A DNA stretch of 40,960 nucleotides from an uncultured Treponema sp. (GTDB lineage: Bacteria; Spirochaetota; Spirochaetia; Treponematales; Treponemataceae), in NCBI GenBank assembly GCA_946532115.1, contig CAMNBC010000007.1, positions 1-40,960 on the forward strand. The letters run 5' to 3'. Within the stretch, counting starts at the first letter, position 1. The number at the start of each line of letters is the position of its first letter. This document shows positions 24,948 through 29,527 of this stretch, piece by piece. The position numbers were made by a program, and so were the translations under genes. The notes below the pieces were generated by a model, which saw nothing but the letters and a program-made list of their open reading frames with translations, was not told the origin of the DNA and did not search any database.

Positions 24948-24976
24948 TTGACATTTATGTCATAATTCATTATTCT
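24948..24976 (+). promoter_or_regulatory. promoter TTGACA-N17-TATTCT
   Basis: TTGACA 24948-24953, TATTCT 24971-24976. Confidence 0.7.
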
Positions 24977-24980
24977 ACAG

Positions 24981-25025
24981 AGCGAAGACTGTTACCGGGG
25001 TGCCGGAATGGATCTTCGCTTTTTT
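24981..25025 (+). terminator. hairpin AGCGAAGA...TCTTCGCT + TTTTT (terminator/attenuator-like)
   Basis: 8-bp perfect stem at the predicted transcription start, followed by a T-run. Confidence 0.55.
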
Positions 25026-25053
25026 ATTGCCCGGCGAGGGTTTATAAGGTGGT

Positions 25054-25091
25054 AAAGCTAAAAATTGCTTTCGCAATTTTTTTAACGCTTT
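25054..25091. repeat. AT-rich hairpin, AGC-TAAAA...TTTTTAACGCT type
   Basis: AAAGCTAAAAATTGCTTTCGCAATTTTTTTAACGCTTT; similar architecture at 38381 and 40763. Confidence 0.5.
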
Positions 25092-25159
25092 GCTATCTAT
25101 CACCGGCCACCAGTGGCCTTACTCACATTAAAAGACTTGATCCAAGGAGGACAGGTACT

Positions 25160-25177
25160 ATGACTCATCAAACTTAA
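25160..25177 (+). other. micro-ORF MTHQT* with strong SD (AAGGAGG), possible leader peptide
   Basis: AAGGAGG 25144-25150, ATG 25160, stop TAA 25175-25177; located before coaX. Confidence 0.35.
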
Positions 25178-25222
25178 GGCATTCCCTGCCATATAGGCGA
25201 ATTCTTTTAACAGGGGGAATGT

Positions 25223-25990
25223 ATGATTCTTACAATCGACGTTGGAAATACATCTACGGCCTGCGGGCTTTTTGAGGGCGACGAGTGCGTGCTCAGATTC
25301 CGTCGTGCTACAGATATTAATTCAAGTTCAGATGAAATCGGAATTTTTTTGCGTTCAGCATTGCGTGAAAACGGTTATGACTGGCAGAAGATTCAGAAAG
25401 TTGGCTGCTGTTCTGTTGTGCCGGCGGTAAATCATTCGCTTGCAAGAGCATGCTTAAAATATCTGAATCGCGAACCGCTGTTTATTCAGGCTGGAATTAA
25501 GACTGGTCTTAAGCTACGCTATTCAAATCCTAAAGAAATAGGTGCAGACCTGATTGCCGCTGCAATGGGGGCTGTTGCTGAATATCCGGAGAAAAATCTG
25601 ATTATCATAGATATGGGAACTGCAATTACTGCAGAACTTGTTTCTAAGAATAAAGAATTTCTTGGCGGCGTGATTATGCCGGGCTTAAAAATTTCTGTGG
25701 ATGCACTAGCAGGCGGAACTGCAAATCTTACATCTGTAGAAATCATGAAACCAGAGCATGTTTACGGTTCATCAACTACAGAAGCAATTCAGGCAGGGCT
25801 TTATTATGGAACTGCTGGTGCTTTAAAAGAATTCTGTCACTTATTCAAAAAAAATGTTTTCCATGGTGAAGACACACTTATTATCGGAACCGGGGGTTTT
25901 GCAAGAACCTTTGAAGAATACAGGCTCTTTGATGAAATTGTTCCGGGGCTTGTTCTGTCTGGCGTAAAATGCGCAATAGACATCAATTAA
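25223..25990 (+). CDS. coaX: type III pantothenate kinase
   Basis: ILTIDVGNTSTACGLF, VVPAVN, IGADLIAAAMGA, IIDMGTAITAELV, GGVIMPGL motifs. Confidence 0.95.
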   Translation: MILTIDVGNTSTACGLFEGDECVLRFRRATDINSSSDEIGIFLRSALRENGYDWQKIQKVGCCSVVPAVNHSLARACLKYLNREPLFIQAGIKTGLKLRYSNPKEIGADLIAAAMGAVAEYPEKNLIIIDMGTAITAELVSKNKEFLGGVIMPGLKISVDALAGGTANLTSVEIMKPEHVYGSSTTEAIQAGLYYGTAGALKEFCHLFKKNVFHGEDTLIIGTGGFARTFEEYRLFDEIVPGLVLSGVKCAIDIN

Positions 25991-26007: not shown

Positions 26008-26613
26008 ATGACAACAAACAAAACATTATCATTGAACAAAAAACTTACTTTGACAGGTGCATTGAGCGCACTTGTAATTGTACTTGGAATTACCAGACTT
26101 GGTTTTATCTCTCTTGGTGCTGCATCAATTACTATTTTGCATATTCCTGTAATACTGATTTGTATGCTTGCTGGTCTTCCTGAAGGACTTTTTGTTGGAG
26201 CAACATTTGGTATTCTTTCTCTGGTACAGGCAGCCATGAGCACAAGCGGTGGACTTGATCCGTTATTTGTAAATCCACTTGTTTCTGTTCTTCCACGTAT
26301 GCTTATTGCTGTAATTGCCTGGGGACTCTGGAAAGCTTTTAATCTTATTCCTCATATGCCAAAGGCTGTTTCTGCAGGAATTACAGGTTTTATAACTACA
26401 ATTGCACATACACTGCTCGTTCTTGGAAGCCTTTATATTTTCCAGGGAGCTGCTGTTCGTGATGCTCTTGGAGGAATGGGATATTTTGCTCTGGTTGCTG
26501 CCTGTGGATTAAATGCTGTACTTGAAGCAGCAGCTGCAACAATCATCTCTGTAGCAATCTATACAACTCTTTTCTTTACTGGCAAAAAAACTTCTAAGTT
26601 GTCGCAGGAGTAG
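26008..26613 (+). CDS. ECF transporter S component, probably pantothenate (PanT-like)
   Basis: hydrophobic; ITILHIPVILICMLAGLPEGLFVGATFGILSLVQA; adjacent to coaX. Confidence 0.75.
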   Translation: MTTNKTLSLNKKLTLTGALSALVIVLGITRLGFISLGAASITILHIPVILICMLAGLPEGLFVGATFGILSLVQAAMSTSGGLDPLFVNPLVSVLPRMLIAVIAWGLWKAFNLIPHMPKAVSAGITGFITTIAHTLLVLGSLYIFQGAAVRDALGGMGYFALVAACGLNAVLEAAAATIISVAIYTTLFFTGKKTSKLSQE

Positions 26614-26636: not shown

Positions 26637-28082
26637 ATGAGAATAGTTATAGTGGGAGCTGGGTTCACAGGAATCCAGCTGGCCAAACTTTTAATAAATG
26701 AAAAAAATCAGGTTGCCGTTGTTGATAATGATGAGAACACTATCCGTCATGCATCAAATCAGCTTGACTGTACTGTAATGTGTGCAGACGGCAACAATCT
26801 TGAAACGCTGGAAGAGCTTGGAATTGCAAAAGCCGATGCCCTTGTCTGCGTTACCTCTTCCGATGAAGTTAATATGATTACCTGTTCTCTTGTAGACGCA
26901 GTGTATCCCGATATCTTAAAAATTGCCCGTGTTCGTAATTATGCCTACTACGTTAACACTGCCAAGGCCGAAAAAAAGCATTCAAATACATTTGCAGGAA
27001 AGCACCGTCCTCTTTATGGAATCAATTATATGATTCATCCGGACGTTGAGGCTGCTGATGCAATTGTTCAGGCAGTTGAAAACGGAGCGGTTGGAAACGT
27101 TATTACCTTTGATAATTCAGACCTTGAAATTGCACGAATTACAGTTGTAGCCGGTAGTGTGATTGATGGCGTTATGCTAAAGGAACTGCGTTCTAAAACT
27201 GATGTAAAATTTCTTGTTGCCTATATTGAACAGAATGGTGAAACAATGCTTCCGAGCGGAGATACAAAGCTTACTGCTGATACAACTCTTGGTGTTCTTG
27301 TTTCTAAAGATGATATTTCCAGGGTAGTGGAACTTTGCGGTGCAGAACAGAAAGAGCTTCGTAAGGTTGCTTTGATTGGAGCGGGCCGTATTGGAACTAT
27401 TGTTGCAGAAAAACTGATGGGTGGTACGCAAAAGGCAAGCGGAATTGCACGTTTGTTTACAAGTATTAAGGCCCGCAGAAACTTCGATTTTGTGATTATT
27501 GATTCGGATGATGAATTGACGAAGGCCGCCTCGGAAAAGTTCCCGGATGCGCGGGTAATGAGGGCGGATGCAACTGATGAAACATTCCTCCGTGATGAGG
27601 GCATTGTAAATTTTGACCTTGCTATCTGTACAACGCATAATCATGAAATGAACATGGTACTCGCCGCTTATCTTGAATCGCTTGGGGTGAAACAAACGGT
27701 AAGCCTTGTAGGTAGTTCGGCTTTTGCGGAGATTTCACGTAAGCTTGGTATTGATGTTCCGGTGCCGCTTCGTGATGCGGTTGTAGATTCTATTATGAGT
27801 CACCTCCGCGGTAAATCTGTAAAAGAAATTCATACAGTAACAAACGGACAGCTTGAAATTGTAGAATGCGAAGTAACTTCAGATTCAAAAGTTAATGGTA
27901 AAGAACTTAAGGAAATTTCAAATCCTGGAACCTTCCTTGTTCTGCTTGATAAAAAATCAGGAACGGATCAGTATCAGATTGTAAACGGAAATACCCGAAT
28001 TACTGCCGGAGATCATATAGTTCTTATCACTGTTGCCGAGAACAGCAAAAAAGTTCTGGCTTATTTTGGAAGTGGGGTATAA
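26637..28082 (+). CDS. trkA: Trk system potassium transporter TrkA
   Basis: two Rossmann/RCK-N modules (MRIVIVGAGFTGIQLAKLL; KVALIGAGRIGTIVAEKL) with RCK-C. Confidence 0.92.
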   Translation: MRIVIVGAGFTGIQLAKLLINEKNQVAVVDNDENTIRHASNQLDCTVMCADGNNLETLEELGIAKADALVCVTSSDEVNMITCSLVDAVYPDILKIARVRNYAYYVNTAKAEKKHSNTFAGKHRPLYGINYMIHPDVEAADAIVQAVENGAVGNVITFDNSDLEIARITVVAGSVIDGVMLKELRSKTDVKFLVAYIEQNGETMLPSGDTKLTADTTLGVLVSKDDISRVVELCGAEQKELRKVALIGAGRIGTIVAEKLMGGTQKASGIARLFTSIKARRNFDFVIIDSDDELTKAASEKFPDARVMRADATDETFLRDEGIVNFDLAICTTHNHEMNMVLAAYLESLGVKQTVSLVGSSAFAEISRKLGIDVPVPLRDAVVDSIMSHLRGKSVKEIHTVTNGQLEIVECEVTSDSKVNGKELKEISNPGTFLVLLDKKSGTDQYQIVNGNTRITAGDHIVLITVAENSKKVLAYFGSGV

Positions 28083-29527
28083 TGTTTGCAATTTCATTTC
28101 TAAAAATATCTTCCATTCTTCTTTCAATAGTTGGTGTCCTTTTTGCAATTCCACTTGGTTTTGCATTTTATAATGGTGAAACATCAGTTTATCTGCCATT
28201 TATAATTCCAATGGCAATAAGCTTTATTTTTGTATTGGCGGTAAATATTCCAACCCGTAAGTTTAAAATAACAATGAATACCCGTCAGACTTTTTTGATT
28301 GTTGCACTTTCGTGGATTGTCGTTAGCCTTATGGGTGCGGTTCCGCTTTATTTTAGCGGCAGTATTCCACACTTTGTAGATGCTCTTTTTGAAAGCGTGA
28401 GCGGTTTTTCAACAACGGGTTCAACAATATTAAGTGAAATTGAAACATTACCTGTTTCAATCAATATGCTTCGCTGTCTTACTCACTGGATTGGCGGTAT
28501 GGGAATTGTAACTCTCACTGTTGCCCTTATGCCGCTTTTAGGAGTAGGCGGTTTTCAGCTGATAAAGGCTGAAACTACGGGCCCTGAAAAAGGAAAGGTT
28601 ACTGCGCGAATCACAACTACTGCAAAAATTCTCTGGGCTATTTACCTTGGATTTACAGCAGCTGAAACAATTGCTCTTATGATTGCCGGAATGACTTTTA
28701 CAGATGCACTTTCTCATGCTTTTGCAACGCTTGGTACCGGCGGATTTTCAACACGAAACGCTTCCATTGGTTCTTATGATTCTGTTGCAATTGATGTAAT
28801 TATAATGATTTTCATGTTCCTTTCTGGAATCAACTTCAGCCTTTACTTCTATATAATAACAAGAAAATTCCGCGATATTACAACAAATTCTGAATTCAAG
28901 GCTTATCTTATAATTGTGGCTGTTCTCATAATCAGTGTTACAATTTCACTCAGAAATTTTTACGGTAATTTTGGTGACCGCCTGCGCTACAGTTCATTCC
29001 AGGTTGTTTCACTCATGACTACAACCGGTTTTTCAACTGCAGACTTTATGCAGTGGCCTGCTGTTTCACAATTCCTTCTTTTTGTTACATTCTTTATTGG
29101 TGGATGTTCGGGGTCAACTTCGGGTGGTGTAAAAGTTATCCGCTGGCTGGTACTTAGTAAACAGGTTCAAAATGAAACCCGCAAAATGCTTCATCCGCAC
29201 GGAGTTTTTGCAATCCGCTTAAACGGACGTCCGGGACGTAAAGATATTGTTTTTAATGTTGCTGCCTTTATGGTTGTTTACTTTGGACTTGTAGCAGTCA
29301 CAACCTTTGTAGGTTGTCTTGGAAATCTTGATGTATGGTCAAGCTTTACTGGTGCGTTGAGTATGGTTGGAAATATTGGGCCAGGTTATGCACTTCTCGG
29401 TCCTACAGAAAATTTTGGTTTTCTGCCTGATTTTGTAAAATACTGGTACAGCTTTGCAATGCTTGCCGGACGTCTTGAATTATATACAATGATTATTTAC
29501 TTTTTACCGGTTTATTGGGAAAAATAA
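28082..29527 (+). CDS. trkH: Trk system potassium uptake protein TrkH
   Basis: SGFSTTGST, GTGGFSTRNAS, TTTGFSTADF, SGSTSGGVKVIR, GNIGPGY selectivity-filter repeats. Confidence 0.93.
   Translation: MFAISFLKISSILLSIVGVLFAIPLGFAFYNGETSVYLPFIIPMAISFIFVLAVNIPTRKFKITMNTRQTFLIVALSWIVVSLMGAVPLYFSGSIPHFVDALFESVSGFSTTGSTILSEIETLPVSINMLRCLTHWIGGMGIVTLTVALMPLLGVGGFQLIKAETTGPEKGKVTARITTTAKILWAIYLGFTAAETIALMIAGMTFTDALSHAFATLGTGGFSTRNASIGSYDSVAIDVIIMIFMFLSGINFSLYFYIITRKFRDITTNSEFKAYLIIVAVLIISVTISLRNFYGNFGDRLRYSSFQVVSLMTTTGFSTADFMQWPAVSQFLLFVTFFIGGCSGSTSGGVKVIRWLVLSKQVQNETRKMLHPHGVFAIRLNGRPGRKDIVFNVAAFMVVYFGLVAVTTFVGCLGNLDVWSSFTGALSMVGNIGPGYALLGPTENFGFLPDFVKYWYSFAMLAGRLELYTMIIYFLPVYWEK

Follow-up and report, generated by a model that had tools for sequence, protein, structure and literature searches.

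We analysed a window of 40,960 nucleotides from an uncultured Treponema sp. (assembly GCA_946532115.1, contig CAMNBC010000007.1, positions 1 to 40,960, forward strand), in which the gene of a type III pantothenate kinase, coaX, is followed by a gene for a panT-like component of an ECF transporter, whose specificity for pantothenate we infer from its linkage to coaX. TrkA-like and TrkH-like potassium uptake genes (26637-29527) lie immediately 3' of coaX-panT, and L414 and L415 share this order. The leader and the two genes comprise the following features:

24948..24976, + strand: sigma-70-type promoter TTGACA-N17-TATTCT of the coaX leader, recognised by sequence
24980..25021, + strand: pan hairpin 1, whose architecture recurs elsewhere with other stems
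25020..25025, + strand: T-run behind hairpin 1, a possible conditional terminator in the clade, common to eight leaders
25051..25125, + strand: structured repeat of 75 nt, dispersed in the genome; this copy occupies the spacer of the pan hairpins and is outside the switch
25133..25159, + strand: pan hairpin 2, with bulged A 25140 and A 25157 and pairings ACTTG/CAGGT, TCC/GGA and AG/CT, from fold and conservation
25144..25150, + strand: Shine-Dalgarno (SD) sequence AAGGAGG of the uORF, within hairpin 2, from sequence and fold
25160..25177, + strand: uORF MTHQT*, its ATG directly 3' of hairpin 2; the start is retained in 20 coaX leaders, the peptide varies
25179..25222, + strand: hairpin masking the coaX SD, GCATTCCCT / AGGGGGAATGT, starting just after the uORF stop; from the fold, kept or rebuilt in relatives
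25223..25990, + strand: coaX, type III pantothenate kinase (PF03309, E 8e-68; NF009855 above cut-off)
26008..26613, + strand: panT-like ECF transporter substrate-binding component (PF12822, E 5e-13)

The initial annotation of this stretch had read the region before these genes as a structured leader that controls pantothenate uptake and phosphorylation in cis, and our analysis strongly supports that reading. The promoter is present as described, with the -35 box at 24948-24953, a spacer of 17 nt, the -10 box at 24971-24976 and a transcription start predicted near 24980-24984. Its -10 and -35 letters are retained in the related leaders L272, L312, L322, L324, L291 and L414, and mostly in L415; an operator dyad spanning the -35 was considered as a conserved element and dropped, since it is lost in L415. 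The 5' hairpin and its T-run were also found (24980-25021, then TTTTTT), and this supposed terminator is the tandem partner, pan hairpin 1. It folds with -23.9 kcal/mol (z -5.8), a value equalled by 0 of 200 shuffles, and reads GAAGA-CTGTT-A-CCGG..CCGG-AATGG-A-TCTTC, with bulged A's at 24994 and 25012, five pairs (CTGTT/AATGG) between them and an inner CCGG/CCGG. The T-run is common to the clade formed by the window, L272, L312, L322, L324, L291, L414 and L415, so that hairpin 1 may add conditional termination there.

The same architecture recurs in the genus. We scanned upstream of hairpin 2 with a structural pattern (3 bp, 5 bp, a bulged A, 2 bp, a loop and a bulged A) that detects 31 of the 32 known first hairpins of Bacillota. 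With zero mismatches, it is found at most 130 nt upstream in 36 of 58 Treponema loci, compared with 2.2 of 58 expected from dinucleotide shuffles (maximum 7), the instances being selected by pairing and the shuffles being the sole control. Their stems differ widely and are compensated (CAGTT/AATTG, CATTG/CAGTG, CAGCT/AGTTG, CTTAG/CTGAG, CCGAT/ATTGG and GGTCG/CGGCT). In the panB leaders L278, L283, L309 and L315 the promoter stands immediately 5' of hairpin 2 and there is no first hairpin. In L273 (genome G120) the apical loop of hairpin 1 appears to hold an inserted stem-loop, with the outer arms and the bulged A's kept.

Hairpin 2, which the initial annotation overlooked, is the most conserved part of the leader. 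It reads AG-ACTTG-A-TCC..GGA-CAGGT-A-CT, folds with -8.1 kcal/mol and covers the SD of the uORF; in the comparison of coaX leaders, the motif AGACTTGATC-loop-GGACAGGTACT runs up to the start codon. Of 196 genomes of the genus, 60 contain the pattern ACTTGATCN{1,16}GGACAGGT, each a single time, and its reversed control gave zero matches in the same 196. By position, 59 of these 60 sites are functional, heading coaX or panB operons: 27 lie directly before panB and 9 directly before coaX, 20 precede an ORF of 4-10 codons followed by coaX, and in 3 coaX begins a few bases on. The remaining match (G158) falls inside a reading frame and was taken as chance. An exact scan for the same pattern across GTDB proved too loose, with chiefly chance among the matches listed, and we give it no evidential weight. 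Within Treponema the arms of hairpin 2 are nearly invariant, therefore no covariation is seen for it. The 59 sites share the bulged-A architecture, and both hairpins of the window adopt it unprompted; the minimum-energy fold of the entire leader draws the two of them with all four bulged A's.

The micro-ORF MTHQT* with its SD AAGGAGG is present as the earlier reading had it, and the masking of an SD behind it is likewise supported. The mask over the coaX SD has -14.9 kcal/mol and a z of only -1.3 when taken alone. It is kept in L272, L312, L324 and L291 (genomes G003, G015, G183 and G121), lost in G152 (L322), and rebuilt at the same place from other letters in L414/L415 (G092/G728), as GGTGCTCTTCCT / AGGAGGAGCGC with -19.7 kcal/mol, and rebuilding of this sort suggests selection for masking. 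Other species have a uORF whose stop overlaps the start of coaX (MNLIKVK*), or a coaX that begins at the ATG of hairpin 2 itself. In all these arrangements, the start codon that hairpin 2 gates probably governs the operon.

Between the two hairpins lies an element of another kind. The segment 25051-25125 occurs in 12 places of its own genome (the window copy and 11 more) and belongs to a genus-wide family with up to 24 places per genome in genus-mates; among 39 genomes, none was found outside the genus. Aligned, 26 copies agree at their two ends, GGTAAAGC...TTAC(T/A)CA, and in both self-complementary stems. The coaX leader of G003 carries the repeat, and in G015 (L029/L272), G183 and G152 the leader is otherwise the same without it. 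The repeat being dispersed and absent from the G015 leader, the middle hairpins AAAATTGC/GCAATTTT and GGCCA/TGGCC fall outside the coaX device: they exist as first described, but they are not parts of it. A common intergenic repeat, which the initial annotation had named as a ground for refutation, thus accounts for the leader's middle third only. The repeat may have been gained in G000/G003 or lost in G015: leaders free of it retain letters resembling TTAC(A/T)CA, which are possible scars. The 75-nt repeat, GGTAAAGCTAAAAATTGC..GCAATTTTTTTAACGCTTTGC..GGCCGCCAGCGGCCTTACTCA, is genus-restricted (window 25051-25125; L002-L008 and L010-L027), its stems are kept via compensated changes (e.g. AAAGC/GCTTT, AGAGC/GCTCT, AAACC/GGTTT), and it appears reminiscent of REP-type elements.

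The pan motif was described as hairpins with two bulged A's and, the hairpins being simple, a dimeric protein was favoured as their binder (Weinberg et al. 2010, PMC2864571). Hairpin 2, with one bulged A per arm at five pairs' distance, corresponds to that description; in its core it agrees with the second hairpin both of the Rfam pan consensus (RF01749) and of the pan of B. tequilensis. An Rfam scan of the window and the leader, at the gathering cut-off and at E<=5, returned no known RNA beyond a weak antisense SAM-II match, which lies inside the repeat and was judged chance. RF01749 at E<=10 did not match the site in 8 genomes of the genus, and over 393 Spirochaetota it gave no match above the cut-off of 36.2 bits, the best spirochaete reaching 35.8 bits. 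We class the leader as a diverged variant and not as a standard Rfam member because it falls below this curated cut-off, which is an operational criterion and not a biological one.

Since the 92-position tandem model of Rfam misses the site, we tested homology in both directions with single-hairpin models. A covariance model of 26 Bacillota pan hairpins only was searched at E<=10 against the 335 kb that surround the Treponema sites; of its 35 matches, 33 are exactly the motif. In the reverse search, with a Treponema model over 99 kb of sequence flanking Bacillota pan, the top match was the pan hairpin of L339 and the next that of L334. The scores of the Bacillota-only model stay in a modest range of 12-18 bits (window 12.5, best 17.6), and it is the concentration of matches, more than any single score, that carries the argument for homology. 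Core letters and pairing are thus shared in the reciprocal models. The Treponema hairpins are mostly tandem, as in the window and the 36 of 58 loci, some panB and ECF leaders being single-hairpin. As for the genes, pan is known upstream of operons with panB, panC or aspartate decarboxylase; 27 of the 59 Treponema sites stand directly before panB, with panC and panD in the operon, and the window copy itself heads coaX-panT. The view that the leader belongs to no known class is therefore overturned, although Rfam's model misses it. The initial annotation correctly sensed a real regulatory RNA and bounded it wrongly; its kind is known but unsolved, and its lineage and form are new.

The motif extends to other spirochaetes. 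Weak RF01749 matches among the 393 Spirochaetota include clean single pan hairpins before ECF transporter genes. A combined hairpin model agrees: its matches outside the genus that have E < 0.006 and whose flanks were read stand before EcfA, or before coaC-coaB-coaX in genus g18. Eight of these sequences had been used in training the model, so that the result is partly by construction; those in G743, G038, G026, G032 and G513 are newly found. Matches with weaker E look like chance. Behind the pan hairpin of L403 the operon runs EcfA, EcfT, a PanT-type S component and CoaX, and coaX-panT of the window is the same uptake-and-phosphorylation unit. Single pan hairpins stand before ECF ATPase operons in several other spirochaete families (L403-L408, L424, L425, L429, L430 and L432), and several of those operons end in panT-coaX.

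Taken together, we consider it quite probable that the coaX-panT leader is a diverged tandem pan motif in which hairpin 2 gates the uORF and translation of the uORF unmasks the coaX SD. The sequence, structure, conservation and gene context of the leader and its relation to pan are shown by the comparisons above, and the mechanism we propose has a predicted factor, signal and direction of control. In it, hairpin 1 would occupy the transcription start, and hairpin 2, with the uORF SD within it, would lie immediately 5' of the uORF start codon. Under repletion of the pathway, both would be stabilised by a trans factor that recognises two-bulged-A hairpins; this factor is more probably a protein, which could be dimeric, than a free metabolite. 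Initiation at the uORF would then be blocked and, ribosomes being unable to start there, the hairpin after its stop would stay closed over the coaX SD, leaving coaX-panT off. With the factor unbound, the five codons would be translated, the ribosome would stop beside the mask and open it, and CoaX would be made. In the clade with the T-run, hairpin 1 may additionally end transcription early. We infer both the recognition by a trans factor and that its binding turns the genes off.

Other explanations of the leader must be weighed against this relay. Under leader-peptide attenuation, a layout that the initial annotation named, ribosome stalling on MTHQT would sense an amino acid or a charged tRNA; in favour of this, the micro-ORF has a good SD and a hairpin behind it. 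However, the peptides differ freely among species in letters and length (MTHQT, MTLQT, MRIQI, MNLIKVK, MHIKNN), they hold no run of regulatory codons, and many species without a uORF retain hairpin 2; attenuation is therefore unsupported, and we find it scarcely credible. Hairpin 1 as a mere terminator of the upstream gene, with an RNA of ~45 nt as by-product, would agree with its strong stem and T-run. This is very improbable, because hairpin 1 lies downstream of the coaX promoter and has the pan architecture, it accompanies coaX even where a different gene lies upstream (L272, L312, L414), and in many other species it has no T-run. If the letters of hairpin 2 were a DNA operator or a fixed ribosome-binding site without a regulatory fold, their near-invariance within the genus and their fixed spacing to the start codon would be accounted for; but the loop ranges from 4 to 13 nt while the arms persist unchanged, its place with respect to promoters is not fixed, and in distant copies from spirochaetes and Bacillota the pairing persists with different letters, which makes this highly improbable too.

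The alternative closest to the relay leaves out the protein: hairpin 2 would be a metabolite riboswitch, a minimal aptamer of ~27 nt that binds CoA or a pantothenate derivative directly and hides the SD; in spirochaetes, one such hairpin alone would gate the start codon. The near-invariant core letters around both bulges and a set of genes covering the entire pathway from pantothenate to CoA are in its favour. On the other side, a 27-nt hairpin without multi-branch or pseudoknot is small for an aptamer, and those who described the pan motif preferred a dimeric protein (PMC2864571). The literature we searched held no solution for the pan ligand, and reviews of 2022 call CoA a striking gap among riboswitch ligands and list no natural CoA riboswitch (PMC9971707, PMC10043782). 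We regard a direct aptamer as unlikely; if it were true, pan would be the missing natural riboswitch of the CoA pathway.

Pan, an orphan regulatory RNA since 2010, is reduced by these data to one 27-nt hairpin and its range is extended to spirochaetes. Besides synthesis, its genes now serve uptake (ECF-PanT), phosphorylation (CoaX) and the later CoA steps of CoaB and CoaC, and genes of this range narrow down the likely signal to the entire CoA pathway. CoaX is encoded in nearly all of these operons. Since the hairpin sits on the start site in compact natural constructs, binding of a protein or a metabolite is directly testable. Rfam's tandem model overlooks such single and diverged copies.

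A known parallel is the operator of the MS2 coat protein, a small bulged-A hairpin over an SD or start codon, to which a dimeric protein binds and blocks translation. Hairpin 2 resembles operators of this phage type in being a small bulged-A hairpin that covers an SD or start codon; it bears no sequence relation to them, and differs in having two bulged A's on opposite arms and in serving host metabolic genes. As in the translational coupling of leader ORFs, the uORF stop adjoins a hairpin over the next SD, whereas here the start of the uORF itself lies inside a conserved RNA hairpin, which would make a two-step relay. The known Bacillus pan of B. tequilensis (L334, 1593-1680) is directly followed by a short ORF, MKLAEL*, a terminator-like hairpin and panB, and this arrangement parallels the Treponema uORF. 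An antiterminator pairing shared by pan tails and downstream terminators in Bacillota is not claimed, since it exceeds chance only slightly (7.7 vs 6.6 bp, G-U allowed). With pan RF01749 itself the Treponema leader shares the two bulged A's five pairs apart, the core GAUC..GGAC..(A)C, the mostly tandem form, the 5' leader position and the pantothenate genes. It departs from RF01749 in its phylum, Spirochaetota, which is new, in the often single hairpin and in scores below the Rfam cut-off. Furthermore, its hairpin 2 overlaps an SD and touches the start codon, its hairpin 1 has diverged, with a T-run at its end in one clade, the spacer of the window holds a repeat, and its genes include coaX, panT, coaB/coaC and ECF transporters.
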